Shown piece after piece: positions 12,892 to 48,839 of a stretch of 64,000 bases of DNA. Every line of letters begins with the position of its first letter. The stretch's first letter is position 1. The position numbers and the translations under genes were made by a program. Source of the stretch: Chloroflexota bacterium (GTDB lineage: Bacteria > Chloroflexota > Limnocylindria > Limnocylindrales > CSP1-4); assembly GCA_003169735.1 (NCBI GenBank), contig PNAP01000010.1:1-64000 (forward strand). Direction: 5' to 3'. The notes under the pieces are model-generated. The model did not search any database. It was given only the letters and a program-made list of their open reading frames with translations, and was not told where the DNA came from.

Positions 12892-13878
12892 TCAGTGGCG
12901 CGGGCGTCCGCCGCTCTCGACGATCCGAACCTGGGCGATGGCATTCTCGAGCCGGATCTTGGCGATGGTCAGGTACTTCGCCAGGTTCTGGCGGTCGGTC
13001 GTCTCGATCTCGGACATCGCGCCGTCCGACTGGAGCACCGCCGACAGCTCGTCGAGCGCGACCGCCAGGTGGGCCTTGGCGGAGACGAGCGAATCGTCGC
13101 GTACCGGTCGGCCGTCGCCGGACGACGCGAGTTGCGGCTCGACTGGTTCAGACGCCACATCCGCGGCCGCGTCCACCGTGTCGCCGACTGTCGCCGTTCG
13201 TGGCCGGCCCTCGATCTTCTCGCGCAACTTGATGAGCGTCAGTTCTCCGCGCGCCACCTGCTCGGCCAGCCGACGTCGCTTCTTGGGGTCGAGGACCTTC
13301 ATCAATTCGTAGGCGTGGGACAACGTGTCTTTGCGCAAAGACACCAGCTGCTTGATCTCGGCAGGGGCATCGGCGAGGCGCAGCCGGTTCTCGATGTAGC
13401 CCTTGTCCTTGCCGAGCTTCTGGGCCAAACGGCGAAGGCTGTAGCCGTGGTCGTTCGTCATCCGCTCGTACATGATCGCTTCGTCGAGCGGTGACAGATC
13501 CTCGCGCTGCAGGTTCTCGATGAGCGCGATCTCGAGCGCCGTGTCGTCATCGATCTGCTCGATGAGCGCCGGGATCTCAGCGAGGCCGGCGATGCGCGCA
13601 GCGCGCCAGCGGCGCTCGCCCGCGACCAGTTGGTAGCGTCCGTCCTCGGCCGGCCGCACCAGGATGGGCTGGAGGACGCCATGCTCGACGATCGACGCTG
13701 CCAGCTCCGCAAGCGTTGCCTCGTCGAAGGTGAGGCGCGGTTGCTGCGGGTTGGCCGAGATGAGATCGAGTGGAACGTTGCGGACGCCATGGACGGCGGT
13801 CGCGCTGTTGGGCGTCAGGAAACTGATGATGGTGGGGGAGAGCTCTCGCTCCTCGGACAGCCGCTCCGCCGCGCGCAT
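12892..13878 (-). CDS. parB: Chromosome partitioning protein ParB
   Basis: 328 aa from ATG 13878; a TTG at 13899 overlapping the parA stop is an alternative start. DNA-binding CTPase that loads at parS and spreads to form the partition complex. Motifs in order: VPLDLISANPQQPR, GVLQPILVRP, the CTP-site blocks VAGERRWRA (near residue 85) and IENLQRE, then the helix-turn-helix YSLRRLAQKLGKDKGYIENR (near 147-166). The recognition helix GKDKGYIENRLRL departs from the usual GKSRSxVxN, which suggests a changed target site. The frame runs through a 20-bp palindrome encoding VSLRKDT (near residues 179-185). The C-terminal dimerisation domain is preceded by a long acidic/Ala linker. Confidence 0.95.
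   Translation of the reverse strand: MRAAERLSEERELSPTIISFLTPNSATAVHGVRNVPLDLISANPQQPRLTFDEATLAELAASIVEHGVLQPILVRPAEDGRYQLVAGERRWRAARIAGLAEIPALIEQIDDDTALEIALIENLQREDLSPLDEAIMYERMTNDHGYSLRRLAQKLGKDKGYIENRLRLADAPAEIKQLVSLRKDTLSHAYELMKVLDPKKRRRLAEQVARGELTLIKLREKIEGRPRTATVGDTVDAAADVASEPVEPQLASSGDGRPVRDDSLVSAKAHLAVALDELSAVLQSDGAMSEIETTDRQNLAKYLTIAKIRLENAIAQVRIVESGGRPRH
13325..13344. repeat. 20-bp perfect palindrome, copy 1 (candidate parS)
   Basis: GTGTCTTTGCGCAAAGACAC, a perfect inverted repeat with no spacer, inside parB. The identical 20-mer recurs at 16423-16442, and I saw no third copy in the window. Chance occurrence of two identical 20-bp palindromes 3 kb apart is negligible. Position inside/near parAB and presence within coding DNA are typical of parS, although the canonical parS core is TGTTTCACGTGAAACA. 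Confidence 0.7.
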
Positions 13879-13891
13879 CCGGAAGTCCGGC

Positions 13892-14662
13892 CTAACCAAG
13901 CTCGATGACCTCGCGGGCGAGTCCGCGATAGACGCGCGCCGCCTCGGAGTTCGTGGCGTACTCGGTGACCGGCCGACCGACCAGCGGTGCCTCGCCCAAC
14001 CGGACGGTCTGCTTGACCATGTTCTGGAAGATGTGGTGGTCGCCCATCGACTTCAACTCCTCGAGCATGTCGCGCCCGAGCAGTGTGCGCCCATCGAAGA
14101 AAGTGGGCAACAGGCCGAGGATCCGCAGGTCGGGATTGAGGCCCCGGCTACGGACCTGGTCGATGACATTGACCAGGGCGTTGAAACCCTTGAGCGCGTA
14201 GTACTGCGTCTGGACCGGGATGATGACGCTGTCGGCCGCGACCAGCGCGTTGATGGTCAAGAGTCCGAGCGTCGGCGGGCAGTCGATGAGGATGAAGTCG
14301 TAGTTCTCGTGCGCCCAACCCTGGAGCGCCTCGCGCAGCGCGTACTCGCGACCGATGGCACTGAACAGCGTGTTCTCGGTGGCCGACAGGTCGATGTCCG
14401 ACGGAGCAACGTCGATCCCGACGGTCTGGGTCGGCACGATCACGTCACGAATCGTCACGCCGGGTTCGATGAGCACGTTGGCGATGGAGCGCTCGATGGT
14501 CCGCGGATTGAGTCCCAGGCCGACGGTCAGGTTAGCCTGCGCATCCATGTCGACGCACAGCAACCGATTCCCGTTCTCGGCAAGTGAGCCCGCGAGGTTG
14601 ATCGCGGTCGTGGTCTTGCCGACGCCGCCCTTCTGATTGGCGATGGCGATGACTCGTGACAA
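13892..14662 (-). CDS. parA: Chromosome partitioning ATPase ParA/Soj
   Basis: 256 aa from a TTG at 14662, chosen because GGAGG lies about 5 nt upstream and the product then starts right before the ATPase core, as in other Soj proteins; a GTG at 14746 would add 28 residues. Deviant Walker [10 protein letters not shown] at residues 11-19, then [11 protein letters not shown] (switch I) and [13 protein letters not shown] (Walker B/switch II), followed by [11 protein letters not shown]. It binds DNA as an ATP dimer and is stimulated by ParB-parS. Its stop lies 13 nt before the ParB ATG (and inside the alternative TTG start), so the pair is co-translated. Confidence 0.95.
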
Positions 14663-14738
14663 TGCGTCCTCCGTGACCGACGCGTCGAAAGCGCCGGGAT
14701 TGAATCTAACCCAGGATGGCCGTTCTGCCTCCGGCGGG

Positions 14739-14747
14739 TTATCCACA
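14739..14747 (+). promoter_or_regulatory. Consensus DnaA box upstream of parA
   Basis: TTATCCACA, a perfect match to the bacterial DnaA-box consensus, 77 bp upstream of the parA TTG. Two degenerate relatives follow within 35 bp: ATCCACC at about 14761 and, on the other strand, TATCCACGG (14780-14772). The latter two form an inverted repeat, ATCCAC-N7-GTGGAT (14761-14779). Confidence 0.5.
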
Positions 14748-14814
14748 AAACTGTTGGTTCATCCACCGAATCCGTGGATATCTCGGGACCGCGTGTCGGC
14801 CCCGGGGCGCGCGG

Positions 14815-14820
14815 TACGAT
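14815..14820 (+). promoter_or_regulatory. Possible -10 box of the propionyl-CoA carboxylase operon
   Basis: TACGAT 46 nt upstream of the TTG start of pccB, in the parA-pccB divergent region. No good -35. Confidence 0.3.
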
Positions 14821-14866
14821 ACGTCGGCTCCGGACTCCTGCGACGTCCGTGGCCAGGAGGATGGGA

Positions 14867-16420
14867 TTGACGACGAACCGCGACCAGATGGATCGGCTGG
14901 CAGCGATGCGCGCCGAATCGCGACTCGGCGGTGGCGTCGAGCGCATCGAGCAACAGCACGCGCGCGGCAAGCTGACCGCCCGTGAGCGTTTGGAACTGCT
15001 CCTCGACGACGGATCCTTCGTCGAGTTCGACCCGTTCGTGACGCACCGTGCCACCGACTTCGGGCTCGGCGAGCAGCGCATCCTGGGCGACGGCGTCGTG
15101 ACCGGCCACGGCACCATCGACGGCCGTCTCGCCTTCGTCTTCAGCCAGGACTTTACGGTCTTCGGCGGATCCCTGTCTGAGACGCACGCCGAGAAGATCT
15201 GCAAGGTCATGGACCTGGCGATGAAGGTCGGCGCGCCCATCATCGGGCTCAACGACTCGGGTGGCGCGCGCATCCAGGAGGGCGTCGTCTCACTCGGCGG
15301 CTACGCCGACATCTTCCTGCGGAACACGCGCGCGTCCGGTGTCGTACCGCAGCTGTCGCTGGTCATGGGCCCGTGCGCGGGTGGTGCGGTCTACTCGCCG
15401 GCCATCACGGACATCACCATCATGGTCGAGGGCACGAGCTACATGTTCGTAACGGGACCCGATGTGGTTCGCGCCGTCACCCACGAGGATGTCGATCGCG
15501 AGCGACTGGGTGGCGCGGTGACGCACACCACGGTCAGCGGCGTGGCGCATCTGGCCGCTGACGACGAACCGAGTGCCATCGCCATGGCGCGGAGGGTGCT
15601 CGGCTACCTGCCGCAGAACAACCTGTCGGATCCGCCACGGTCGCCGACCGCCGATCCGCCCGGCCGGATGGACGCCGCCCTTGATTCGCTCATCCCCGAT
15701 GAGCCGTCGCAGCCCTACGACATGCACGACGTCATCACGCGGATCGTGGACGACGGCGAGTTCCTTGAGATCCAGCCGGGTTGGGCAGCGAACGTCCTCG
15801 TCGGTTTCGGTCGGTTCGATGGCCGCAGCACCGGCATCATCGCCCAGCAACCGGCGGTCCTTGCGGGTGCGCTCGATATCGACGCCTCGGATAAGGCGGC
15901 GCGGTTCGTGCGCATGTGCGATGCGTTCAACGTGCCGTTGCTCACCCTGGTTGATGTGCCGGGTTTCCTGCCCGGCGTCACCCAGGAGCATGGCGGGATC
16001 ATCCGCCACGGAGCGAAGCTCCTCTACGCCTACGCTGAGGCGACTGTCCCGAAGGTCACCGTCATCACCCGCAAGGCCTACGGCGGCGCCTACGACGTCA
16101 TGAGCAGCAGGCATATCGGCGGTGATGTCAACCTCGCCTGGCCGACGGCCCGCATCGCGGTGATGGGCGTGGAGGGCGCCGTCAACATCGTCTTCCGCGA
16201 CCGGATCGCCAAAGCCACCGACCCGGACGCGGAACGCGTCAAGCTCAACGCCGAATACGAGGAACAGTTCGCCCACCCGTACATCGCGGCAGCGCGGGGA
16301 TTCGTTGACGACGTGATCCTGCCCTCCGAGACACGCCCGCGGGTCATCTCCGCACTGACCATGCTGGACGGGAAGCGTGAGCGTAACCCGGCCAAGAAGC
16401 ACGGCAACATCCCGCTCTGA
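14867..16420 (+). CDS. pccB: Propionyl-CoA (acyl-CoA) carboxylase beta subunit
   Basis: 517 aa. The start chosen is TTG 14867, which has AGGAGG (14855-14860) exactly 6 nt upstream; ATG 14861 abuts that site and is too close. This subunit transfers CO2 from carboxybiotin to acyl-CoA, forming methylmalonyl-CoA from propionyl-CoA. Crotonase-fold carboxyltransferase: [18 protein letters not shown] start, [19 protein letters not shown], the oxyanion-hole GGARIQEGV and [12 protein letters not shown] in the N-half, and [20 protein letters not shown] plus [12 protein letters not shown] in the C-half. Length is usual for PccB. Heads an operon with the biotin carboxylase and carrier. Acetyl-CoA or a longer chain cannot be excluded as an additional substrate, but the mutase and epimerase downstream argue for propionyl-CoA. 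Confidence 0.93.
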
Positions 16421-18021
16421 TGGTGTCTTTGCGCAAAGACACCCAGGCCCGGCGAACGAACCCGCCGTTCCGCCGCGTCCTCATCGCTAACCGTGGCGAG
16501 ATCGCGTTGCGCATCATGCGGGCCTGTCGCGAGCTGGGGATGGAGTCGGTTGCGGTCTACAGCGACGCCGATGCGACGGCTCGCCACGTCCGGGCCGCCG
16601 ACGCGGCGGTCCGCATCGGCCCGGCGCCGGCAGGGGAGAGCTACCTGCGGGGCGACGTCATCATCGCCGCAGCCGTGGAGACGGGCGCCGAGGCCATCCA
16701 CCCCGGCTATGGATTCCTCTCCGAGCAGAGCGACTTCGCCCACGCATGTGAAGCGGCCGGCATCGTCTTCGTCGGGCCGACGCCGCGGACCCTGGCGTCA
16801 CTCGGCGACAAGGTGGCGGCTCGTCGATCGGCGAGGGCGGTTGGCGTACCCATCGTGCCCGGCATGTTCAAGCCACTGCCGGCGGACGGCGCCGCTGCCC
16901 TGCCGCTGATGGCCGCTGAGGCGGCGAGGATCGGTTGGCCGCTGATGGTCAAGGCGTCGGCCGGCGGCGGTGGCCGCGGCATGCGCCGCGTCGACCGCGA
17001 AGCCGACCTGCCGATGGCCGTGGCCGCGGCGTCGCGCGAGGCGAAAGCGGCGTTCGGCGACGGTTCCGTCTACCTCGAGCGGCTCATCGAGGGCGCCCGC
17101 CACGTGGAGGTGCAGCTCCTTGGCGATTCTGCCGGCAAGGTCGTGGCGATCGGCGAGCGGGACTGTTCCGTCCAGCGCCGCAACCAGAAGCTCGTCGAGG
17201 AGGCGCCCGCCCCCGGCTTATCCACCGAGCAGCGACGCCATCTGCACGGGCTGGCGGTCACCATCGCGGGCACGGTCGGGCTGCGGAACGCCGCGACGGC
17301 CGAGTTCCTGCTGACACCGGCTGGCGAGTTCTTCTTCCTCGAAGTCAACGCCCGTCTCCAGGTCGAGCACGGGGTCACGGAGCTTGTCACGGGCCTCGAC
17401 CTGGTCAAGGAACAGTTCCGCATCGCAGCCGGTGAGCCGCTCTCCGCGGCCGTCTTGGCGGCCGCGGACGCGTCCTCCCGGCCGGCCCGCCACGCCATCG
17501 AGGTGCGCATCTCGGCCGAGGATCCGTCGCGCGACTTCGCGCCGGTGCCGGGGACGGTCACCCACTGGCGCGAACCCGGTGGGCCGGGGGTCCGCATCGA
17601 TGGCTGGGTCGAGGAGGGGACCCGTGTCGGCCCCGACTACGACCCTCTGATGGCCAAGTTGCTGGTCGTCGCCGATGACCGACCGGCCGCCATCGCCCGA
17701 CTGCGGCGGGCGCTCGATGAGTTCGAGATCGGCGGCCTTCAGACGACCCTGCCGTTCCACCACTGGCTTGCCGACCTGCCCGACTTCGTCGACGCCCACC
17801 TCCGCACCGACCTCGTTGCCCGGAGCTGGGAGCCGCTGCCGCTCCGGAGGATCGCCGCCGGGCACGCGGCCCACGCGGTCGCCGCGCACCTGCTGGACGC
17901 CACGGGGGGAAGCTCGGCCGCTCATACCATGGGTGCCAGGCCGGCCACGGCGGCTACAATGACCACGGGATCGGGCTGGCATGCCGCGGCGCTTCGCGAA
18001 GGCACGGAGCGATGGCCGTGA
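16420..18021 (+). CDS. pccA: Acyl-CoA carboxylase biotin carboxylase subunit
   Basis: 533 aa; ATG overlaps the pccB stop (TGATG). ATP-dependent carboxylation of biotin. Motifs: RRVLIANRGEIALRI start, the ATP-grasp glycine loop KASAGGGGRGMRRV, EVQLLGDSAGKVVAIGERDCSVQRRNQKL, and FFLEVNARLQVEHGVTE with the catalytic Glu/Arg cluster. Unlike long PccA/AccA3 proteins it has no fused biotinyl domain; that is the next gene. The first ~15 residues ([16 protein letters not shown]) are an extra extension encoded by the 20-bp palindrome, which also yields VSLRKDT in ParB. The last ~60 residues after the C-domain are Ala/His-rich and look poorly conserved. Confidence 0.92.
   Translation: MVSLRKDTQARRTNPPFRRVLIANRGEIALRIMRACRELGMESVAVYSDADATARHVRAADAAVRIGPAPAGESYLRGDVIIAAAVETGAEAIHPGYGFLSEQSDFAHACEAAGIVFVGPTPRTLASLGDKVAARRSARAVGVPIVPGMFKPLPADGAAALPLMAAEAARIGWPLMVKASAGGGGRGMRRVDREADLPMAVAAASREAKAAFGDGSVYLERLIEGARHVEVQLLGDSAGKVVAIGERDCSVQRRNQKLVEEAPAPGLSTEQRRHLHGLAVTIAGTVGLRNAATAEFLLTPAGEFFFLEVNARLQVEHGVTELVTGLDLVKEQFRIAAGEPLSAAVLAAADASSRPARHAIEVRISAEDPSRDFAPVPGTVTHWREPGGPGVRIDGWVEEGTRVGPDYDPLMAKLLVVADDRPAAIARLRRALDEFEIGGLQTTLPFHHWLADLPDFVDAHLRTDLVARSWEPLPLRRIAAGHAAHAVAAHLLDATGGSSAAHTMGARPATAATMTTGSGWHAAALREGTERWP
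16423..16442. repeat. 20-bp perfect palindrome, copy 2 (candidate parS)
   Basis: GTGTCTTTGCGCAAAGACAC, identical to the copy in parB; with its flanking G and C the symmetry extends to 22 bp (16422-16443). It begins 3 bases into the biotin carboxylase gene, so it adds seven residues to the N-terminus without disturbing the domain. Confidence 0.7.
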
Positions 18022-33595: not shown

Positions 33596-33621
33596 GTGGC
33601 GCCGAGTGGCGCGAAGTGGGG
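33596..33621 (+). promoter_or_regulatory. MraZ operator (three GTGGNG repeats)
   Basis: GTGGCG-N4-GTGGCG-N4-GTGGGG with exact 10-bp spacing, immediately downstream of the -10. MraZ is known to repress its own operon through such short direct repeats at one face of the helix. Confidence 0.7.
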
Positions 33622-33781
33622 AACAGCGGTGAGGAAACCATCAGGAGCGGCTCAGGTCGGGCCGAGGGTGGGGACCGGATCACGCAACTCAGGGTGAGCC
33701 CGAAACCCAGCGCGGCCCATGTCGGGTCGAGGAGCGGAGGGCTCGCCCACCGTCCGTCGGTGGTCGAGGCAGGGAGCCAGG

Positions 33782-34213
33782 ATGTTCACAGGCGAATACC
33801 GCCATTCCGTGGACGAGAAGGGCCGCGTCGCGGTACCCATCCGATTCCGCGCGGATCTGGCGGGTGGCGCCATGGTCAGCAAATGGATCGACGGCTGCCT
33901 GGCCATCTTCCCGCGCGATGCCTGGGACCAACTGGCCTCGAAGGCCTCGAACCTGCTGGTGACCGACGCCAGCGCACGCACATTCCAGCGCTTCCTCTAC
34001 GGCAACGCGTTCGAGGTCGAGCTGGATCGGCAGGGTCGGTTGGTCGTCCCGGCCAGCCTTCGCGAGTACTCCGGGTTGACCGGCGACGCGGCCGTCGTGG
34101 TCGGCTCGTTCGATCACCTCGAGCTGTGGTCACCCGACCGCTGGCGCGCCTACAGCGCCGGCATGGATGTGCCCGAGGTGCTGGCACAGCACCTCCAGGG
34201 CCTGGGGATCTAG
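33782..34213 (+). CDS. mraZ: Transcriptional regulator MraZ
   Basis: 143 aa from ATG 33782 (AGCCAGG just upstream), the start that gives the standard MraZ N-terminus MFTGEYRHSVDEKGRVAVP. Two AbrB/SpoVT-like swapped-hairpin repeats: residues ~5-50 and ~75-125, the second beginning FEVELDRQGRLVVPASLREYSGL. Ring-forming DNA-binding protein that autoregulates the division/cell-wall cluster; the three-repeat operator lies upstream. Confidence 0.95.
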   Translation: MFTGEYRHSVDEKGRVAVPIRFRADLAGGAMVSKWIDGCLAIFPRDAWDQLASKASNLLVTDASARTFQRFLYGNAFEVELDRQGRLVVPASLREYSGLTGDAAVVVGSFDHLELWSPDRWRAYSAGMDVPEVLAQHLQGLGI

Positions 34214-34221
34214 CAAACCAG

Positions 34222-35214
34222 ATGAGCCTCCAGGATCCGGAGGGATCCGCACGAGAGGCGGTCGCGATCGTGGAAGCAGGGCATCTGCCCGTGATGGAGG
34301 AGGAGGTCATGGCGGCTCTCTCACCCATTCCGGGCAGCTTCCAGATCGACGCGACCGTCGGTGGCGGAGGGCACACTTTTCGGATCTTGGAGGCCGCCAC
34401 TCCGGGCGGTCGCGTCCTCGGACTTGACGCGGACCCGGCGGCGATCAGGCGGTCGTCGGAGCGGCTGCGGCCGTTCGGCGACCGAGCTGTCCTGCGACAG
34501 GCGAATTTCGAGCGCATCGGCGAGGTCGCTCGCGACGCGGGCTTCGGGGCCGTCGACGGCGTCCTGTTCGATCTCGGCCTCAGCTCGTACCAGCTGGCCG
34601 ACCTCGAGCGAGCGTTCAGCTTCCGCGCCGCGGGCCTGCTCGACATGCGCTTCGACACGTCGGTCGGAGAGCCGGCGCGACGACTCCTGGCGACGCTCGA
34701 TGAGCGCCAGCTCGCCGATCTGCTGCAGCGGTACGGCGAGGAGCCGTCGGCGCGGCGGATCGCCAGGGCCATCGTCGAGCGACGTCGAAGTGAGCCCATC
34801 GAGACCGGCCAGCAACTGGCGCAGCTCGTCGTCTCGGTCGTGCCCGCCGCGCGGCCGGGCCGGCGGCGGATCCACCCCGCCACGCGCACCTTCCAGGCGC
34901 TGCGCATCGCGGTCAACCGCGAGCTCGAGGTGCTGCCCGTGGCGCTGGCAGCCGCCGTCGACCTGCTCAAGCCGGAGGGCCGCCTGGCGGTCATCAGCTA
35001 CCACTCGCTCGAGGACCGCATCGTGAAGCGATTCGTGGCGGCCGAGCGCCGCGGCTGCATATGCCCGCCGCAGTTACCCGTCTGTGTCTGCGGCCGCTCG
35101 CCGCGTCTCGCGCCGGTCGGACCACAGCCGCAACGTCCCACCGAGGCCGAGGTGAGCGGCAACCCGCGCGCCCGCAGCGCGCGATTGCGCGTGGCGCGGA
35201 GGCTCGCGGCATGA
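34222..35214 (+). CDS. rsmH: 16S rRNA (cytosine-1402-N4)-methyltransferase RsmH
   Basis: 330 aa, ATG 34222, 8 nt after mraZ. Methylates N4 of C1402 in the ribosomal P site using SAM. Motifs: GHLPVMEEEVMAAL, DATVGGGGHTFRIL (SAM motif I), LGLDADPAAI, VLFDLGLSSYQLADLERAFSF, RTFQALRIAVNREL and AVISYHSLEDRIVKRF. Usual size. Carries a CxCPP-like tail (GCICPPQLPVCVCG) seen in many members. Confidence 0.95.
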   Translation: MSLQDPEGSAREAVAIVEAGHLPVMEEEVMAALSPIPGSFQIDATVGGGGHTFRILEAATPGGRVLGLDADPAAIRRSSERLRPFGDRAVLRQANFERIGEVARDAGFGAVDGVLFDLGLSSYQLADLERAFSFRAAGLLDMRFDTSVGEPARRLLATLDERQLADLLQRYGEEPSARRIARAIVERRRSEPIETGQQLAQLVVSVVPAARPGRRRIHPATRTFQALRIAVNRELEVLPVALAAAVDLLKPEGRLAVISYHSLEDRIVKRFVAAERRGCICPPQLPVCVCGRSPRLAPVGPQPQRPTEAEVSGNPRARSARLRVARRLAA

Positions 35215-35414
35215 GCCGGCGCCACGGCGCGGCGCGACGGCGCAGTTACGGACCCCGCCAGCGAGATCTCAGGCGGCGGGCGCCGCAGATCCTCGACCTC
35301 GACATCGAGTCGCCCATCGGATCTTCGGGCGCCGTGGTCACCGACGTCGACCGGCTCACCATCGTGACCGAGGACCTCCGGTCAGCCCGAGCCTCCACCG
35401 GAGGTGCCATCTGA
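35211..35414 (+). CDS. Hypothetical small protein, 67 aa, between rsmH and ftsL
   Basis: ATG overlaps the rsmH stop (ATGA), and its own stop overlaps the next ATG (TGATG), so it is embedded in the coupled operon and is likely to be translated. The N-terminal half is strongly basic (SRRHGAARRRSYGPRQRDLR), the C-terminal half acidic (DLDIESPIG ... DVDRLTIVTEDLRS). No membrane segment and no known family. The charge layout would suit a nucleic-acid or membrane-surface contact, but this is a guess. Confidence 0.6.
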   Translation: MSRRHGAARRRSYGPRQRDLRRRAPQILDLDIESPIGSSGAVVTDVDRLTIVTEDLRSARASTGGAI

Positions 35415-35785
35415 TGGCCGTCTACCAGGGCACGCAGCGGCCTGTCCTCATCCCCGGCGCTCGGCGGCGCGCGGCACCGATGGAGCGGCGCGCCCGGCGC
35501 ATCCCCATCCGTGCCCAGCGACGAGCGCGACCGATCGCCATCGCCCTCGTCTTCATCGTGGCCGTCTTCATGGTGGCCCTCGTCTACCTGACCCAGTCAC
35601 TCCAGACCGCGGCCGTGCAGTTCCAGATCGACCAGCTGCGATCCGACCAGACGGAGCTCCACCGGCAGATCCAGACCCAGCAGGGGACCATCGCCCGCTG
35701 GGGAGCGGAACCGCAGGTCGTCGAATGGGCACAGCAGAACGGCCTTGGGCAGCTCGGCGGCACCATCCACGTCCCGGCTCGGTAG
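35414..35785 (+). CDS. ftsL: FtsL/DivIC-like septum protein
   Basis: 123 aa. Basic cytoplasmic leader (~45 residues), one membrane helix (IAIALVFIVAVFMVALVYL), then an extracytoplasmic coiled coil (QIDQLRSDQTELHRQIQTQQGTIARW) and a short C-terminal segment with VEWAQQNGLGQL. Bitopic architecture and place just before ftsI match FtsL, which links FtsQ/DivIB to FtsW-FtsI. Sequence conservation in this family is low, so the symbol is by architecture and order. Confidence 0.75.
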   Translation: MAVYQGTQRPVLIPGARRRAAPMERRARRIPIRAQRRARPIAIALVFIVAVFMVALVYLTQSLQTAAVQFQIDQLRSDQTELHRQIQTQQGTIARWGAEPQVVEWAQQNGLGQLGGTIHVPAR

Positions 35786-35791
35786 CCCGGC

Positions 35792-37798
35792 ATGCTTGGC
35801 CGCACGGATCGCCGCCTTCGCCTCGTCATCATCCTCGTCATCTTCGCCGGGCTGGCGGTGGCGATGGTGGCGCGCCTTTCGTACTGGCAGCTCTCCCAGG
35901 CGACCGTGCTGCGCGATCAGGCCGCCGCGCAACTCACCCATACGACCGAGGATCCGGCGCTGCGTGGCGACATCATCGATCGCAATGGGACGGTCCTTGC
36001 CACGACCTCGTTCACCGACCTGCTCGCGGCATCACCGGCGCAACTCGGACAGGATCGGACCCTCACCGAGACGCTGGCGCGTCTCGACAGTATCCTCGGC
36101 GAGGACGCTGCCGGCCGAGCAGCGCTCCAGACGCTGCTCACCGGCACGGATCCCTACGTCGTGGTGGCACATCGCCTGACCGAAGCCCAGAGCCAGGCCA
36201 TCCGTGCCGCCCAGGCCGGTCCGGCGGCTGGGCAGATCGACGGCATCACGCTCGAACCGGAGCCGGTCCGGTTCTACCCGAACCCGGGCGGCGCGCCCGG
36301 CACGACCCTGGCCAGCCAATTGCTGGGCTTCGTGACCGAGGACGGCCAGGGTCAGCACGGCATCGAGCAGTACTACAACGACCTGCTGGCCGGCACCCCG
36401 ACCAAGGTCGCCTCGCTGGTGGGCCCCGGCGGAACGTCGCTCGAAAGCTCGCAGCAGGTGCTCCAGCCCGGACGCCCGGGGTCGACCATCCAGCTGACAA
36501 TCGACGCCGGCCTCCAGCTCCAGCTCGAGAAGGAACTCTATGCGACGTGGGTGGCGGACCCATCGTCGCGGGTGAGCGCCACGATCATCGATCCGTGGAC
36601 CGGTGAGGTCCTCGCCTGGGCGTCTGTGCCCGGCTACGACGAGAACGACTACTCGACGGTGGCCTCCACGTCGCCCGGCCTGTTCGCCGATCCCATCGCC
36701 AGCCAGGTCTACGAACCGGGTTCGGTCATGAAGATGCTGACCGCCGCCGCCGCGCTGAACGCCGGTGTCGTGACGCTCGACCAGACCGTCCAGGACAGCA
36801 CCGAGTTGCGCTTCGGTTCCGACGTCATCCGCAACTACGACGATCTCTCGATGGGCCGCTTGCCCTTCGAGGACGCGGTCGCGTACTCCCGCAACGTGGC
36901 CGTCGCGAAGGTCGCCGCGACCCTCGACAAGACGGTGCCGACGGCAGCCGCGCGTCTGTACGGGATGTGGCAGCAGTTCGGCATCGGCCAGCCGACCGGT
37001 ATCGACCTGGCCAACGAGGCGGCGGGCATCGTGGCCGACCCGGCCACGCAGCCGTGGCAGCCGGTCGACCTTGCCGACCGGGCCTTCGGCCAGGGCGTTG
37101 CGGTGACCCAGGTCCAGCTCGCAGTCGCCTACGCCGCGATGGTCAACGGCGGCATGAAGGTCACGCCCTACCTGGTCAAGCAGATCGACGACACGCCGCA
37201 CGCCGTCGCGCCTCCGACGTCGATCATCTCGCCGTCACTGGCCGGCCAGTTGCAGAGCCTGCTCCAGCACGTCACCGAGGTCGTGCCCTGGTACAAGTCC
37301 GGCACGCAGATTCCCGGCTACGTGGTCGGCGGCAAGACCGGCACGGCCCAGATCTGGGATGCCAGCGCCAACGCCTGGGAACCCAACACGTTCAACTTCT
37401 CGTTCGATGGTTTCGTCGGCACGGACAAGCCGCGCGCGGTCATCACGATCCGCATCCAGGATGGCGTCCCGGATAACCGCGGTGGCGGCAACCTCTATCT
37501 CGCGGTCGCGTCGTACCAGCTGTTCCGCCGCCTCGCCATCGACACGATGTCGGCGATGGGCGTGCCGCCACTCACCGGCGGGCAGCCGCCGATCGCCTCG
37601 CCATCCCCGACCCCGAGCAGTCGCCCGAGTGGGGGCGGTGGCGGCGGTGCGAACGGCGGATCGGGCGGCAGCGGGAGCGGCGGGCACGGTCATGGCCCGT
37701 CACCGAGCCCAACGCCGCGTCCTACCCCGAAGCCGACCACGAGTCCCCCGGCGCGTCCGAGCCCTGACCCATCGCCGGGCCCGAGCGCCGGAGGGTAG
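35792..37798 (+). CDS. ftsI: Penicillin-binding protein FtsI (PBP3-type transpeptidase)
   Basis: 668 aa. Cytoplasmic start, one membrane helix near residues 10-30, pedestal domain (PALRGDIIDRNGTVLATT), transpeptidase domain. Catalytic motifs: SVMK at S311-K314, YSRN (SxN) near residue 368, and KTG at 515-517. It cross-links septal peptidoglycan together with FtsW (encoded further on). The last ~75 residues are a low-complexity Gly/Ser then Pro/Ser/Thr tail; no PASTA domains. 6 nt after ftsL. Confidence 0.94.
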   Translation: MLGRTDRRLRLVIILVIFAGLAVAMVARLSYWQLSQATVLRDQAAAQLTHTTEDPALRGDIIDRNGTVLATTSFTDLLAASPAQLGQDRTLTETLARLDSILGEDAAGRAALQTLLTGTDPYVVVAHRLTEAQSQAIRAAQAGPAAGQIDGITLEPEPVRFYPNPGGAPGTTLASQLLGFVTEDGQGQHGIEQYYNDLLAGTPTKVASLVGPGGTSLESSQQVLQPGRPGSTIQLTIDAGLQLQLEKELYATWVADPSSRVSATIIDPWTGEVLAWASVPGYDENDYSTVASTSPGLFADPIASQVYEPGSVMKMLTAAAALNAGVVTLDQTVQDSTELRFGSDVIRNYDDLSMGRLPFEDAVAYSRNVAVAKVAATLDKTVPTAAARLYGMWQQFGIGQPTGIDLANEAAGIVADPATQPWQPVDLADRAFGQGVAVTQVQLAVAYAAMVNGGMKVTPYLVKQIDDTPHAVAPPTSIISPSLAGQLQSLLQHVTEVVPWYKSGTQIPGYVVGGKTGTAQIWDASANAWEPNTFNFSFDGFVGTDKPRAVITIRIQDGVPDNRGGGNLYLAVASYQLFRRLAIDTMSAMGVPPLTGGQPPIASPSPTPSSRPSGGGGGGANGGSGGSGSGGHGHGPSPSPTPRPTPKPTTSPPARPSPDPSPGPSAGG

Positions 37799-37805
37799 GG
37801 CGACC

Positions 37806-39281
37806 GTGCGAGAATGGCCGACGATCGTGAGTGACGCGCCGAGCCAACCGCTGACCAACGGCGCGCCCGGCTTCGACGCTGCGTCGCTCACCCGAGCCGT
37901 ACATGGCCGCGTCGTGATCCCGGGGCGTTCGCCGATCCGGGGCGGCTCGGTCGATTCGCGTCGCATCACCGCCGGTAGCTGTTTCTTCGCCCTGCCCGGT
38001 GAGAGGACCGACGGACACCGCTTCCTGGCCGAAGCGATCGCGGCCGGTGCCGCGGCGCTCGTCGTGCGCGAGGATCGGATGCTGGATGCCGACGCGGCGC
38101 GGGTTGCCAATGAAGCCGGTGGGCGGACCTCTGTCATCGCCGTCCCCGACGTCCTGCTCGCGTTGCAGGCGGCGGCCGTCGCCTGGCGCGATCGCTTCGA
38201 CCCGCTCGTCGTGGGCGTCACGGGATCACTCGCCAAGACGTCCACCAAGGAGCAGATCGCCGAGGTGCTCGCCGAGCGATGGAGCGTGCTGCGCAACGAG
38301 GGCAACGAGAACAACGAGATCGGCCTGCCGCTCACGCTTCTCCGACTCCTGCCGGAGCACCACGCCGCCGTCCTCGAGATGGGCATGTACGTCGAGGGCG
38401 ACATCGCGCTGCTGGCGCGCCTCGCACGCCCGAGCATCGGTGTCGTGACCGCGGTGCGTGGCACGCACCTGTCTCGCGCGGGCTCGATCGAGGCGGTCGC
38501 CCGCGGCAAGGGCGAGCTCATCGACGCGCTGCCGGCCGGCGGCACCGCCATCCTGAACGCCGACGACGAGCGCGTCCTGGCGATGCGGGACCGGACCACC
38601 GCGCGGGTCCTCACCTACGGCTTGACCGGCCGGCCCGACGTGACGGCTGATGGCGTGGAGTCGCTGGCCGAGGCGGGCATGCGCTTCACGCTCCGGACGC
38701 CGAGCGGCAGCATCGCCGTCGAGACCGCCGCGCTGGGTCGCCATAGCGTGCACAACGCGCTGGCCGCGGCCGCGGTCGGGCTGACTGCCGGCTTCGATCT
38801 TCCGACCATCGCGAGCGGCCTGCGAGGCGGCTTTCATGCGCCGCATCGGACAGCGCTGGTGCGGGCCGGGGAGTGGCGCATCCTCGACGACAGCTACAAC
38901 GCCGCACCCGATTCGATGATCGCGGCGCTGGGATTGCTGGCCTCGCTGCCCGGCCGCCGGATCGCGGTTCTCGGCGAGATGCTGGAACTCGGCGATGCCG
39001 CGGAGGCGGCACACATCGAGGTCGGGCGCGACGCGGGCAGGCTGGCTGACCGCCTCGTGGTCGTTGGCGAGGGCGCGATCGGGATCGCTCAGGGGGCGCG
39101 CGAGGCCGGCATGATGCCCGAGGCTGTCAGCGTCGTCGCCGACCGAGACGCCGCTCTCGAGCTGTTGCTGCGGATCCTTCGGCCGCAGGACGCCATCCTC
39201 GTCAAGGCGTCGCGCGGCATCGCCCTCGAACTGCTGGTCGATGCGCTGGTCGCCGCTGGCGGCGACCCGGTACGCGCGTGA
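37806..39281 (+). CDS. murF: UDP-N-acetylmuramoyl-tripeptide-D-alanyl-D-alanine ligase MurF
   Basis: 491 aa from GTG 37806; GTG 37827 is an alternative. Adds D-Ala-D-Ala to the UDP-MurNAc-tripeptide. Three Mur-ligase domains: GGSVDSRRITAGSCFFALPGERTDGHRFLAEAIAAGA N-domain, the ATP loop, and the C-domain ILDDSYNAAPDSMIAAL ... LGEMLELGDAAEAAHIEVG. The ATP loop reads GVTGSLAKTSTKE, where the usual GxxGKT(T) glycine is alanine; EMGMYVEGDIALLARLARP is normal. It follows ftsI by 7 nt. No murE precedes it. Confidence 0.9.
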   Translation: MREWPTIVSDAPSQPLTNGAPGFDAASLTRAVHGRVVIPGRSPIRGGSVDSRRITAGSCFFALPGERTDGHRFLAEAIAAGAAALVVREDRMLDADAARVANEAGGRTSVIAVPDVLLALQAAAVAWRDRFDPLVVGVTGSLAKTSTKEQIAEVLAERWSVLRNEGNENNEIGLPLTLLRLLPEHHAAVLEMGMYVEGDIALLARLARPSIGVVTAVRGTHLSRAGSIEAVARGKGELIDALPAGGTAILNADDERVLAMRDRTTARVLTYGLTGRPDVTADGVESLAEAGMRFTLRTPSGSIAVETAALGRHSVHNALAAAAVGLTAGFDLPTIASGLRGGFHAPHRTALVRAGEWRILDDSYNAAPDSMIAALGLLASLPGRRIAVLGEMLELGDAAEAAHIEVGRDAGRLADRLVVVGEGAIGIAQGAREAGMMPEAVSVVADRDAALELLLRILRPQDAILVKASRGIALELLVDALVAAGGDPVRA

Positions 39282-39298
39282 CGCGCGTGACGCGCGTC
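39272..39298 (+). repeat. Three tandem 9-mers at the end of murF
   Basis: ACGCGCGTG x2 then ACGCGCGTC; spans the murF stop codon. Probably a slippage-type microrepeat. Confidence 0.6.
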
Positions 39299-39321
39299 CA
39301 GCTCGCGATGGGCCACGGGCG

Positions 39322-40311
39322 ATGAGCGGCACCGAGAACATCGTCCAGGCGCTCCTGTTGGCCTTCGCGCTGGTGGTCATCACCATGCCCGCCTTCATGC
39401 GCCTGCTGCGCCGCCTCGGCTTCGGCAAACGCATCCGTCTCGAGGGTCCGCAGAGCCACCTGGTGAAGGAGGGCACGCCGACCATGGGCGGGCTGCTCAT
39501 CATCGGCGTCGCTGGCGGGGTGGCGATGCTGGTGGAGCTGCTCGGTGGCCGCTTCGTGGACGGCTCGACCTTCGCTCCGTTGGCCACGCTTGCCCTCGTC
39601 GGCCTGCTCGGAGCCGTGGACGACTACCTGAATGCGCGGACCGGGCAGGGCATCCGCGTACGCCAGAAGCTGCTGTGGCAGACCGCCGTGGCCGGCTACG
39701 CCGCCTTCCAGATCCAGCAGACATACGACATCCACCATCTGCTGGTGCCATTCGTCGGCTCGGTCGAGGTCGCACCCATCCTGTACGTCCTGTTCGCCGC
39801 GTTCGCCATCATCGCCACGAGCAACAGCGTCAACATCACCGATGGCCTCGACGGCCTCGCCGGCGGGACGCTCATCTTCGCGTTCATCGGCTACATGATC
39901 ATCGCCGCCGTGAACGGCCAGCCGAACCTGGCCGTGCTGTGCGCGCTGATCATCGGCGCGCTGCTCGGCTTCCTCTGGTTCAACGTCCACCCGGCGCAGG
40001 TCTTCATGGGCGACGCCGGTTCGCTGGCCCTCGGCGCGACGCTGGCGGTCGTCGGGCTCATCTCTGACCAGATCCTGCTGTTACCGCTCATCGGCCTGAT
40101 CTTCGTGGTCGAGACGGGCTCCGACCTGGTCCAGATCCTCAACTACCGCCTGACCGGTCGGCGCATCTTCCGAATGGCGCCGCTGCATCACCACTTCGAG
40201 CTGGCCGGATGGGACGAGGAGAAGATCACCGTCCGCTTCTGGATCGTCGGCGTCCTATCGGCGATGCTCGGCGTGGTCGTCTTCGTCGCCAGCCGCAATT
40301 TCCACGCATGA
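39322..40311 (+). CDS. mraY: Phospho-N-acetylmuramoyl-pentapeptide-transferase MraY
   Basis: 329 aa from ATG 39322. Polytopic membrane enzyme that makes lipid I from UDP-MurNAc-pentapeptide and undecaprenyl phosphate. About ten helices. Signature regions: KEGTPTMGGLLII, GAVDDYLNAR (Asp pair), SVNITDGLDGLAGGT and FMGDAGSLALG, then RMAPLHHHFELAGWDEEKI with the HHH motif. Confidence 0.95.
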   Translation: MSGTENIVQALLLAFALVVITMPAFMRLLRRLGFGKRIRLEGPQSHLVKEGTPTMGGLLIIGVAGGVAMLVELLGGRFVDGSTFAPLATLALVGLLGAVDDYLNARTGQGIRVRQKLLWQTAVAGYAAFQIQQTYDIHHLLVPFVGSVEVAPILYVLFAAFAIIATSNSVNITDGLDGLAGGTLIFAFIGYMIIAAVNGQPNLAVLCALIIGALLGFLWFNVHPAQVFMGDAGSLALGATLAVVGLISDQILLLPLIGLIFVVETGSDLVQILNYRLTGRRIFRMAPLHHHFELAGWDEEKITVRFWIVGVLSAMLGVVVFVASRNFHA

Positions 40312-41882
40312 CCGCCGCCGTGGAGCCCGTCCGACCGTTGGCCGACACGCCGCCCATCGACCTCGACACCATGACGCTCGATTCGTTTGCCGGCCGACCG
40401 GTGGCCGTGCTCGGCCTGGCGCGCAGTGGCGTCGCCCTGGCACGGTTCCTGGTCGACCGTGGAGCGCGGATGACCGTCTACGACGGCCGTCCGGCGGCAG
40501 AGCTTGCGCGCTCGATCGAGGCGCTCGGTGATCGACGCGTGAGGCTTCTGCTCGGCCCGGAGGTGGCACCCGACGAAGCACTCCGCGACCAGGCGCTGGT
40601 CTGCACGTCGCCCTCGGTCAGCAGCCGCTACCCGACCACCGAGCCGCGGCTGCGCGAGGCGCTCGGCCGGCTCGAAGCCGAGGGACGCGTGCCGGTGGTC
40701 AGCGAGATCGACCTCTTCCTGCGGCTGTGCCCCTCGACGACCATAGGCGTCACCGGGACCAAGGGCAAGACGACGACATCGTCGTTCATCGCCGCGGTGC
40801 TGGCGGCCGGTCCCGACCCGGTCATCCTCGGTGGCAACATCGGGACGCCGCTCGTCGAGCGGCTGCCCGAGCTGACCGCGCGCCACCGGGTCGTGCTCGA
40901 GCTCTCCGAGCTGCAACTGCCGACCATGTCGCGCGGCACGGACGTCGCCGTCTACACCCACGTCACGGCCGATCACCTCGACCGTCACGGCTCGCTGGAG
41001 GCGTATCGGGCCGCGAAGCGGCGCCTCGTGGAACTGCTCCCCGACGACGGTACGCTCGTCCTGAACGGCGAGGATCCGGTCACGGCGCCGTACGCGGAGC
41101 TGCGGCCGGCCGGCGCCGCGCTGGTGCGCTATCGCCGCCAGCCACCGGAGCGCGGCGAGATCGGCGTGGCCGACGGCTGGATCGTCGCCGACACCGAGCG
41201 CTTCAGCGGCCCCATCATGCCCATCGCGGAACTGCTCATCCCCGGGGAGCACAACCTAAGCAACGCGGCCGCGGCCGCGGCCGTCGGGCTCCTGTTCGGC
41301 ATCGCCCCCGACGCCATCCGGGCCGCGATGGCCGGGTTCCGCGGTGTCGAGCATCGCCTCGAGACGGTCGCCACGCTCGACGGTGTCCGATTCGTCAACG
41401 ACTCGATGGGCACGCAACCCGACGCCGTCATCGCCGCATTGCGCAGCTTCGCCCCGCCCATCGTGCTCATCGCCGGTGGGCGCGCCAAGGATCTGCCCAT
41501 CGACGAGCTGGCCGGCGTGGTCGCCGCGCGGGCTGCTGCGGCAGTCTTCATCGGCGAGAGTGGGCCGCGCCTCGAGGAGGCGTTCCGGCGGGCGGGCATG
41601 CGCCACACCGAGTTCGCCGCCGATCTGCCGGCCGCCGTCACCCGCGCCGACGCCATCGCCCATGAGCTTCTCGGAGGCGGCGCGCCGAGCCCCGCCACGG
41701 TGCTGATGAGCCCCGCCGCGGCGAGCTTCGACATGTTCGAGGACTACGCCGTCCGCGGCCGCGTCTTCAAGACGGCCGTCGCCGCCCTCGCCGCCGCTCG
41801 GGCGAGCGTCGCCGCGGCCGGGAAACGGTCCCCGACCGACGCCGGCACGGCCCCCGATGGCCGACGCCCGGAGCGGCCATGA
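40308..41882 (+). CDS. murD: UDP-N-acetylmuramoylalanine-D-glutamate ligase MurD
   Basis: 524 aa; ATG overlaps the mraY stop (ATGA). Adds D-Glu to UDP-MurNAc-L-Ala. N-terminal Rossmann domain (PVAVLGLARSGVALARFLVDRGARMTVYD), ATP loop GVTGTKGKTTTSSFI, GGNIGTPLVERL, HVTADHLDRHGSLEAY, and FRGVEHRLETVATLDGVRFV. The NDS(K)AT-type motif reads NDSMGTQPDAV. About 70 residues longer than E. coli MurD owing to a long first segment and an Ala-rich tail. It overlaps ftsW by 4 nt. Confidence 0.92.
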   Translation: MTAAVEPVRPLADTPPIDLDTMTLDSFAGRPVAVLGLARSGVALARFLVDRGARMTVYDGRPAAELARSIEALGDRRVRLLLGPEVAPDEALRDQALVCTSPSVSSRYPTTEPRLREALGRLEAEGRVPVVSEIDLFLRLCPSTTIGVTGTKGKTTTSSFIAAVLAAGPDPVILGGNIGTPLVERLPELTARHRVVLELSELQLPTMSRGTDVAVYTHVTADHLDRHGSLEAYRAAKRRLVELLPDDGTLVLNGEDPVTAPYAELRPAGAALVRYRRQPPERGEIGVADGWIVADTERFSGPIMPIAELLIPGEHNLSNAAAAAAVGLLFGIAPDAIRAAMAGFRGVEHRLETVATLDGVRFVNDSMGTQPDAVIAALRSFAPPIVLIAGGRAKDLPIDELAGVVAARAAAAVFIGESGPRLEEAFRRAGMRHTEFAADLPAAVTRADAIAHELLGGGAPSPATVLMSPAAASFDMFEDYAVRGRVFKTAVAALAAARASVAAAGKRSPTDAGTAPDGRRPERP

Positions 41883-43237
41883 CCGCCCGTCCAGAGCCCG
41901 TCCGGCGTCGGCTGGTGCTGCCGCGCGTGCCGCTCGCCGGGCCGGTGGCACGCCCGGCGGCGGCCCTCGTCGCACCAGTGCGGCGCGACGCGTCGTCCGG
42001 TGGCAAGTCACGCGTCGCACGCGGGCCGCAACGTGAGCGCCACGAGCCCGACTACCTGGTGCTCCTCCTGGTCGCCGCGCTCACCGCCGTCGGCCTGTTG
42101 ATGATCTACTCGAGCTCCGGCGTCCATGCCGCGATCACCACCGGTGGCGACCCATTCGTCGCCGTCGCGCCGCAGATCTGCTGGTCGCTGCTGGGCATCG
42201 TCGCGCTCGTGCTGATGATGCGCCTCGACTACCGCTACCTGCGGCTGATGTCCGTGCCGGTGTACGGCGTGGCCATCGTCCTGCTCGTCATCGTCCTTTC
42301 GCCCGGCATCGGCCCCATCAAACCCATCGAGATCGGCGGCTCCACGCGTTGGCTGCAGATCGGCCCGCTGCCATCGATGCATCCGGCCGAGTTCGCCAAA
42401 CTGGCGCTCGTCATCTACCTCGCGCACTGGCTGGCAAAGCGCGGTACGCAGAGCGCCAGCCTCGTCCACGGCATGATCCCGTTCCTCATCATCAGCGGCC
42501 TGTGCCTCGGCCTGGTCGCTCTCGAGCCGGACCTCGGCACGACCGGCGTGCTGACGCTGACCGCCTTCACGATGTTCTTCGTGGCCGGCGCGAGCCTCTG
42601 GCAGCTGGCGTTGGTGGCGCCGGTCGGGCTCGCCGGTCTCGCCGCGTTCATCGCCACATCGGCCTACCAGATGGATCGCATCCGCAGCTTCCTCGACCCG
42701 TGGGCGTATCGGCTCGAAGGTGGCTTCCAGACCGTGCAGGGCCTGCTCTCGCTCGGGCTGGGCGGCCTGTTCGGGACCGGCCTGGGGCAGAGCCAATTGC
42801 CCGGCGGCCTGGACCTGCCGAACAGCGACAATGACTTCATCTTCGCCATCATCGGCCAGGAGTTCGGGTTCATCGGAGCAAGCCTGGTCATCGCCCTCTT
42901 CCTGTTCCTGGCCTATCGCGGCGTGCGCATCGCCCTCGCCGCGCCCGACACCTTCGGCGCCCTGCTGGCCACCGGCATCACCGCCTGGTTGACGTTCCAG
43001 GCGCTCATCAACATCGCGGTGGTCATCAACCTCCTGCCCATCACCGGCATCCCGCTGCCGTTCGTGAGCGACGGTGGCTCGTCGCTCGTCGTCAGCTTCG
43101 CGGCGGTCGGTATCCTCCTATCCATCTCGCGAGAAACGCAGCCTCGAGGCACATGGAACGATGCGGATCCTGATCGCGGCCGGGGGTACGGGCGGCCACA
43201 TCTACCCAGCCCTCGCGGTGCTGCGGTCCCTCGCTGA
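41879..43237 (+). CDS. ftsW: Peptidoglycan glycosyltransferase FtsW
   Basis: 452 aa. SEDS-family polymerase acting with FtsI at the septum. A basic, Pro-rich ~58-residue cytoplasmic leader precedes about ten helices. Family markers: GLLMIYSSSG near the first helix, GGSTRWLQIGPLPSMHPAEFAKLALVIYLA, ALEPDLGTTGVLTL (the conserved LEPDxGT aspartate), LDPWAYRLEGGFQTVQGLLSLGLGG, NSDNDFIFAIIGQEFGFIG and GIPLPFVSDGGSS. The frame runs 77 nt into murG, which adds an untypical Arg-rich tail. Confidence 0.95.
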   Translation: MTARPEPVRRRLVLPRVPLAGPVARPAAALVAPVRRDASSGGKSRVARGPQRERHEPDYLVLLLVAALTAVGLLMIYSSSGVHAAITTGGDPFVAVAPQICWSLLGIVALVLMMRLDYRYLRLMSVPVYGVAIVLLVIVLSPGIGPIKPIEIGGSTRWLQIGPLPSMHPAEFAKLALVIYLAHWLAKRGTQSASLVHGMIPFLIISGLCLGLVALEPDLGTTGVLTLTAFTMFFVAGASLWQLALVAPVGLAGLAAFIATSAYQMDRIRSFLDPWAYRLEGGFQTVQGLLSLGLGGLFGTGLGQSQLPGGLDLPNSDNDFIFAIIGQEFGFIGASLVIALFLFLAYRGVRIALAAPDTFGALLATGITAWLTFQALINIAVVINLLPITGIPLPFVSDGGSSLVVSFAAVGILLSISRETQPRGTWNDADPDRGRGYGRPHLPSPRGAAVPR

Positions 43238-44303
43238 CCAGGTCGACGATCTCGACATCCAGTGGCTCGGGGGACACCGCGGCATCGAATCGAGCATCGT
43301 CCCGGGCGCCGGATACGAGCTCGATCGGCTCTGGCTGCGCTCGCTCCGGACGGTCGACCTCTCCTATCACACGGTGGCCGACCCGCTGCGCCTGGTGGCG
43401 TCCGTGCCGCAGGCGGCGGCGCTGCTGGCCCGGTTCCGCCCGCGTGCCATCTTCACCACCGGCGGGTACGTGGCCGTGCCGGTGCTCACCGCCGCCGCGG
43501 CCGGCCGCATCCCGTCGCTGCTCTGGGAAGGCAATCGGCTGGCCGGCCGGAGCGTCCGCGCCACGGCGCGCATGGCGACCGCCATCGCGGTCACCTTCGA
43601 GGAGACGTGCCGGTCGCTGCCGGGTCGCTGTTTCGTGACGGGCACGCCCATCCGGCCGATGTCCGGCATCGATCGCGCTGAGGCTCGGGCCCGGCTCGCG
43701 CTCTCGGCGGAACTGCCGACCCTGCTCGTCTTCGGTGGCTCGCAGGCGGTCCGGCGGCTCAACGATGCGGTGGCCGACGCGCTGCCCAAGCTGCTCGAAC
43801 GGGCGAACGTCGTCCATCTGACCGGCGAATCGTCGTACGCGGAGGCGCTCCGGCGTCGGGAGGCGCTGCCGCTCGAACGACGGGCGCGGTATCGGCCGTT
43901 CCCATTCCTGCGCGACGAGATGGCCGATGCGCTTGTGGCGGCCGACCTGTTGATCGGTCGTGCCGGTTCCTCCACGCTGGCCGAGGCGACGGCGGTGGGG
44001 CTGCCGATGGTCGTCGTTCCGTATCCCCATGCCGCCGCGCACCAGGTCGCGAACGCCCTTGGCCTGGTCGCGGCCGGCGCCGCGCAGCTCATCGCCGACG
44101 AGGACTTCGACGGACCAGCGTTGCTCCGGGCGAGCGCCATCCTCGACGACGGGCCGGCCTTGGCGGCGATGTCGGCCGCGAGTCGGGCGCTCGGCCGGCC
44201 GGGTGCCGCGCGCGCCACCGCCGAGCTGCTGCTCGCCCTGGCCGAGCACCGCCCGCTCGCGTCGCCGGAGCGCGTCGAGCGGCTCGCCCGGGAGGCCGCG
44301 TGA
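43161..44303 (+). CDS. murG: UDP-N-acetylglucosamine transferase MurG
   Basis: 380 aa from ATG 43161 (MRILIAAGGTGGHIYPALA), the start that gives the family N-terminus; it lies inside the 3' end of ftsW. Makes lipid II from lipid I. GT-B fold: AGGTGGH sugar-phosphate loop, RPRAIFTTGGYVAVPV, VTGTPIRP, LLVFGGSQAVRRLNDAVADAL, LIGRAGSSTLAEATAVGLPMVVVPYPHAAAHQVANA. Peripheral on the inner membrane face. Confidence 0.95.
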   Translation: MRILIAAGGTGGHIYPALAVLRSLADQVDDLDIQWLGGHRGIESSIVPGAGYELDRLWLRSLRTVDLSYHTVADPLRLVASVPQAAALLARFRPRAIFTTGGYVAVPVLTAAAAGRIPSLLWEGNRLAGRSVRATARMATAIAVTFEETCRSLPGRCFVTGTPIRPMSGIDRAEARARLALSAELPTLLVFGGSQAVRRLNDAVADALPKLLERANVVHLTGESSYAEALRRREALPLERRARYRPFPFLRDEMADALVAADLLIGRAGSSTLAEATAVGLPMVVVPYPHAAAHQVANALGLVAAGAAQLIADEDFDGPALLRASAILDDGPALAAMSAASRALGRPGAARATAELLLALAEHRPLASPERVERLAREAA

Positions 44304-47276: not shown

Positions 47277-47355
47277 TGAACGTCCGGGCAGCGCATCGAA
47301 CACAATGGTCGTGAGCCGCGGCCGGATGCCCGCGGCGATGAGTGGAAGGGGAGTC

Positions 47356-48591: not shown

Positions 48592-48612
48592 TGCCGACGG
48601 CAGGCACGCGGT

Positions 48613-48621
48613 CGTGGATAA
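48613..48621 (-). promoter_or_regulatory. DnaA-box-like site upstream of ftsZ
   Basis: TTATCCACG on the minus strand, one mismatch from the DnaA-box consensus, in the ftsA-ftsZ spacer. Confidence 0.3.
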
Positions 48622-48734
48622 CTCCACCGGCCGTCCACCGTCGGTCCACACCGGCCCCAAGAAATGTCGCCAAAGCGCGACGTTGACGAGTCGTCTCGAC
48701 CGGTCTCCATGTCCCCCGCCGAGGGGTGGGCGTC

Positions 48735-48740
48735 TATACT
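48735..48740 (+). promoter_or_regulatory. Predicted -10 box of ftsZ
   Basis: TATACT in the 248-bp ftsA-ftsZ spacer, 99 nt before the ftsZ ATG; no clear -35. Would let ftsZ be expressed apart from the rest of the cluster. Confidence 0.4.
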
Positions 48741-48839
48741 CGTCCGACGACCTCCGGCCGATCGCGCCTGGGCCACCGGCCCGGTGCAGGCACGTCGTTG
48801 ACTCATCGAATAGCCCGTCAAGCTCCCGGAGGGAAGCCG

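Follow-up and report, generated by a model that had tools for sequence, protein, structure and literature searches.

In canonical ParABS (parS TGTTTCACGTGAAACA) parA and parB are linked, ParB combines a ParB_N CTPase domain bearing GERRWR and ENLQR with an HTH_ParB domain, and 16-bp palindromes centred on CG, including sites within genes, cluster at parAB. Two ParB residues that contact parS, R173 and G201, are absolutely conserved in ParB orthologs; R173 contacts guanine 1 of the site and position 201 faces base pair 6 (PMC7383237). Noc of Bacillus and Geobacillus is a ParB paralogue with switched DNA specificity, present beside a canonical ParB and characterised by the quartet QKKR (Q173 K179 K184 R201). 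The NBS sites of Noc are scattered throughout the chromosome. A second ParABS, with a palindromic site specific to it, can also reside in one cell, as on secondary chromosomes and plasmids (Burkholderiales, Vibrio parS2); the parS of Burkholderiales is a 16-bp palindrome with a central CG (PMC5450999).

Here we describe a locus from a draft genome (3.06 Mb, 92.65% complete) of CSP1-4, a lineage assigned to Ca. Limnocylindria, Chloroflexota (PMC10608941). The stretch analysed, hereafter the window, is 64,000 nucleotides long, and two palindromes within it very probably serve as centromere sites (parS1) for a second ParABS on the chromosome, ParA1-ParB1-parS1. The locus shares with canonical ParABS the gene linkage, both ParB domains with their motifs, and the geometry, clustering and intragenic position of the sites. 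It differs in that most positions of each half-site are changed, R173 and G201 are replaced, and parAB1 coexists with a canonical ParABS (ParAB2), with which dnaA is associated. Like Noc, ParB1 is a ParB paralogue of apparently switched specificity beside a canonical ParB, but it has its own parA, a site different from NBS and the quartet K-R-x-S, and its sites number one to five and are tightly clustered, the draft genome having two that lie 3.1 kb apart. The best NCBIfam match of ParB1 by score is TIGR04285, below the cut-off (191 of 315). Its sites share the 16-bp, CG-centred geometry of Burkholderiales parS, whereas the contig that carries parAB1 also carries the dcw cluster, TCA-cycle genes and a tRNA, and no separate replicon was seen. 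We found no report of a second Limnocylindria ParABS in the open-licence papers searched.

The parAB1 locus and its palindromes

Relatives were grouped into numbered families of the class, f1 to f5, and the window belongs to f1. The features of the window are as follows.

12892..13899, minus strand: parB1, a ParB CTPase-fold centromere-binding protein of 335 aa with a TTG start, assigned from domain profiles and structures
13325..13344, no strand: parS1-a (candidate site), palindrome GTGTCTTTGCGCAAAGACAC within parB1, core GTCTTTGCGCAAAGAC at 13327-13342; an exact copy, also found in the parB of f1 relatives, with constant codons
13396..13413, minus strand: start of the ParB1 recognition helix, GKDKGY, invariant in the class
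13892..14746, minus strand: parA1, a Walker-type partition ATPase (QKGGVGKTT) of the ParA/MinD families, PF13614 at 4.8e-62
14774..16420, plus strand: pccB-like carboxyltransferase
16420..18021, plus strand: pccA-like biotin carboxylase, with parS1-b in codons 2-8
16422..16443, no strand: parS1-b (candidate site), 22-bp palindrome GGTGTCTTTGCGCAAAGACACC at the start of pccA, core 16425-16440
33616..50099, plus strand: dcw cell-division cluster (rsmH, PBP, ftsW, murG-like, murB, ftsA, ftsZ)

Profile matches of ParB1 (TIGR00180, 2.5e-48; PF02195, 1e-35; PF17762, 1.5e-17) identify both the ParB_N CTPase fold and the HTH_ParB domain. The AlphaFold model, with a mean pLDDT of 74 and values mostly of 82-93 in the CTPase and HTH part, matches ParB and Noc structures, which are the nearest solved ones. 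As expected of a ParABS, a Walker-type parA1 adjoins parB1, and in f1 and f4 a few palindromic sites cluster near the two genes. A plasmid origin of ParB1 was considered and rejected, as no close plasmid relative appeared among the matches listed, the best of which had about 45-46% identity over about half of the protein.

The exact 20-mer GTGTCTTTGCGCAAAGACAC occurs twice in the window, at 13325-13344 and 16423-16442. A search of the 64 kb at up to 3 mismatches found nothing else (0.01 expected from shuffles), and the perfect palindromy of the second copy reaches 22 bp (16422-16443). As the window has a GC content of 68%, an AT-richer perfect palindrome is conspicuous. The sequence-only reading had reported no other copy in 64 kb; this extends to the whole draft genome, where a search at up to 3 mismatches returned the same two copies and the reversed-pattern control none. 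The two copies flank parA1 within 3.1 kb. A search of the genome and its relatives had been suggested as a check, and in the window's genome the 20-mer does cluster at parAB with no scatter; the closeness to oriC predicted alongside found no support (see below). No canonical parS was found at the parAB1 locus of the window.

Both copies are coding and translate as the same peptide, VSLRKDT, in internal codons of parB and codons 2-8 of pccA, as had been read from the sequence. The accompanying suggestion that this is an added peptide is right for PccA, where it forms an N-terminal extension, but not for ParB, where it occupies normal homologous positions of the DNA-binding domain.

The site and the recognition helix across Ca. 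Limnocylindria

The palindrome GTGTCTTTGCGCAAAGACAC is a member of a motif, YGTCNNTGCGCANNGACR, conserved across the class, the genomes compared being mostly fragmented MAGs. Among f1 genomes 34 of 37 have one to five sites with up to 2 mismatches to the 16-mer core, against 3 matches in total, all genomes together, for the reversed control. At up to 3 mismatches the 34 f1 parAB1 loci contain 90 sites and their shuffles contain 0. Mapped on 30 stretches from relatives and on the window, f1 sites fall within parB, between parA and pccB, and at the pccB-pccA junction or gap or the start of pccA; the site in the parA1-pccB gap is present in most relatives and absent from the window. Sites are typically 1.5-1.7 kb apart, a spacing that is mostly a consequence of gene length. 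The same sites occupy the same places in f4. The consensus site is present in 33 of 38 sampled class genomes compared with 28 of 263 other Chloroflexota. In two families outside the class, f14 and f24, a few genomes have 2-4 consensus matches and no ParB1 helix, and these matches are probably GC-rich background. One MAG (G013) contains two different ParB1-pcc loci (L055 on contig C75 and L056 on C106), probably through mixed strains or contamination.

Within the 90 f1 sites the outer GTC is conserved at 100%, and in the inner TGC T5 reaches 100%, G6 96% and C7 91%. The flanking pyrimidine is also close to invariant. Positions 3-4 are variable and often non-complementary, with arms that do not pair in 61/90 and 63/90 of the f1 sites and in 5/13 and 6/13 of the f3/f5 sites.

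The coding sequence beneath parS1-a provides a test of what is conserved. In the VS[LV]RKDT segment of 34 f1 parB genes lysine is AAA in 30 and serine is TCT in 24; both are rare codons, and AAG is the predominant lysine codon elsewhere in these genes. Mean codon divergence at VSLRKDT is 0.92, against 0.15 ± 0.16 (s.d.) over 240 windows. The peptide is absent from the ParB1 of f2, f3, f5 and one f4 member, hence the protein has no need of it. The constant rare codons together with this absence imply that the palindrome, not the peptide, is kept in f1, and the codon data indicate that the rare codons are held there to preserve it.

The helix GKDKGY[IVL]ENR of ParB1 is invariant in f1-f5 except for S in place of the first G in one f3 sequence. 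Its coding pattern, GKDKGY, is present in all 38 sampled class genomes and in 2 of 263 other Chloroflexota, both of these being chance matches and neither a ParB. Judged by this pattern, ParB1 was found only in Ca. Limnocylindria. In Caulobacter numbering ParB1 carries R173K and G201S/T/A, and so lacks the R173 and G201 of a canonical ParB; it further has D at S172, Y at R204 and a hydrophobic residue at Q162. If the 16-mer is counted from 0, as we read the numbering of PMC7383237, position 1 of the new site is T where canonical parS has G, and position 6 is G in place of the canonical A. Both are positions that the residues replaced in ParB1 would read, which amounts to a correlation.

The arrangement is looser in the other families. 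In f3 and f5 no site was found near parB1, and when exact palindromes around ParB1 were sought de novo in f2, f3 and f5, none was shared. The pattern GTCNNTGCGCANNGAC has 34 occurrences in the 30 f2/f3/f5 genomes against 7 control matches, with no perfect match in several of these genomes. In the sample of 38 class genomes, one f3 genome (G069) also has no perfect match. A genome-wide search recovered the half-site motif just past the end of a uvrD-like helicase gene, no more than about 110 bp from it, in 13 f3/f5 genomes (L154:8956, L155:8925, L166-L169, L171-L178, L180). In G056 one contig carries both the uvrD-linked site and parB1, 48 kb apart and separated by the dcw cluster. As the f3/f5 site lies some 50 kb away from parB1 or else on a different contig, its link to ParB1 rests on half-site identity. 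In family f2, with small genomes of about 1.1 Mb (L105, L107, L115, L140-L144), ParB1 keeps the helix, yet no full palindrome was found near it, and some f2 loci have half-site-like GTCTGTGCGC or GCGCACAGAC pieces upstream of parA1. Matches in dprA-like and ileS-like genes of f2 resemble ordinary coding conservation and were not counted.

The ordinary ParABS and other readings of the palindrome

A ParB match was present in 121 of 121 sampled class genomes, most of which have both ParB1 and a second ParB at about 36-45% identity. Contig C111 of the window's genome carries this ParAB2 as parA2-parB2-gyrB-gyrA-secA, at 28 kb from dnaA; throughout the class ParAB2 is next to gyrBA, and the distances to dnaA that were measured span 22-37 kb. 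The comparison indicates that ParB1 is present in every sampled member of Ca. Limnocylindria, and that the majority also have an ordinary ParABS at gyrBA near dnaA. ParB2 keeps the canonical R..G residues (RTDG). Canonical-like parS (TGTTTCACGTGAAACA, 0-2 mismatches) is present in 48 of 61 relatives and adjoins parA2/parB2 wherever the listed positions are comparable (for example G009, G015, G022, G027, G031 and G059). In the window's genome it is reduced to a 3-mismatch TGTTTCACGTGTTACC upstream of parA2. This decayed copy is at L096:12559-12574 (G000:C111:80559-80574); GTGAAAC follows after a few bases, which makes the site look split, and in most relatives the canonical parS at this place looks intact.

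A canonical ParAB2 with its own parS means that parS1 belongs to an additional system and is not a divergent main parS of the genome. The original proposal of a non-canonical parS is thus strongly supported for the site of the neighbouring ParB1, but not as a replacement of the genome's canonical parS, which belongs to ParAB2. Canonical parS elsewhere in the genome had been named as grounds for refutation; such sites do exist in relatives, but they belong to a different ParB, ParB2.

The first alternative is that the palindrome is the operator of another class-specific regulator, acting for example on pcc/mcm or parAB1 expression and unrelated to partition. Several sites do fall in the parA1-pccB and pccB-pccA gaps, as operators would, but the best-conserved f1 site is well within parB, the f3/f5 sites follow uvrD away from pcc, and the range of the site coincides with that of ParB1. 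Sites also persist after loss of pcc: in one f1 genus (g3) pcc is absent from the locus, with no pccA match at 1e-100 in G006, and the mcm-parA1 and parB1 sites are kept. A pcc operator was rejected because the sites do not follow pcc, and we regard the wider operator reading as improbable. Autoregulation by ParB through the palindrome is compatible with both the operator and the parS readings.

It is very unlikely that the palindrome is a diverged parS of the canonical ParB2, with ParB1 being something else. The decay of ParB2's canonical parS to TGTTTCACGTGTTACC in the window's genome would suit such a switch, yet ParB2 retains RTDG, relatives hold canonical-like sites beside parA2 with both systems side by side, and the new site clusters on ParB1. 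Least credible is a coding repeat or an RNA signal (VSLRKDT, or an attenuator or terminator hairpin), for although both window copies are coding with the same peptide and a perfect palindrome could fold, the copies are intergenic in many relatives, the synonymous codons are constrained, the arms at positions 3-4 are often unpaired, there is no loop and the location is mid-gene; the codon test and the intergenic copies rule out a coding repeat and largely refute this reading.

The assignment of the palindromes to ParB1 is supported by their clustering at parAB in f1 and f4, selection at the DNA level, independence from pcc and the rewritten specificity residues.

A probable second partition locus and its possible roles

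The dcw cluster (rsmH to ftsZ) is about 20-36 kb from parAB1 in the window, and the linkage was found in the f1, f3 and f4 genomes checked (G009, G018, G008, G059, G057 and G056). Across f1 and f4 dcw is linked to parAB1 and sucCD/idh/sdhA, and in one f3 genome to parAB1. As the window also holds sucCD, idh, sdhA and a tRNA besides dcw, parAB1 is most likely on the main chromosome. In the best-assembled relative (G059, 7 contigs) dnaA and ParAB2 are 22 kb apart, and the contig ends put parAB1, which is on a different contig, at a minimum of about 365 kb from dnaA, and so from oriC if dnaA marks it; the GC skew of this genome is too weak to place the origin. The expectation that parS1 lies near oriC thus has no support, dnaA going with ParAB2.

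From sequence we propose the following model, in which binding, CTP loading, spreading and movement are inferred steps. A ParB1 dimer would read two half-sites YGTCNNTGC through its rewritten recognition helix (GKDKGY-x-ENR) and load at the palindrome with CTP. Loaded ParB1 would then close as a clamp and spread across the flanking kilobases, over parAB1, pcc and possibly towards dcw, and nucleoid-bound ParA1-ATP would move or position the complex. The distinct code would block ParB1 from the canonical parS of ParB2, and ParB2 from parS1.

On balance we lean, with some reserve, towards two orthogonal ParABS on one chromosome throughout the class, a canonical one at gyrBA/dnaA and one with a new-code parS by dcw. 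The chromosome would then have two centromere-like loci, and the one at dcw might couple the segregation or positioning of that region to division. The second system may serve as an additional centromere next to dcw, may be an ancestral chromosomal system retained after a shift of the origin, or may have a positioning role like that of Noc. A ParB found throughout the class, encoded with a parA of its own and departing from both R173 and G201, would together with a matching site represent a natural second solution to a change of ParB specificity, besides Noc. The two make up a defined ParB-parS pair for which orthogonality to canonical parS is predicted and which would be useful for DNA labelling. 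The finding also raises the question of why one chromosome should have two partition systems, one of them beside the division genes.
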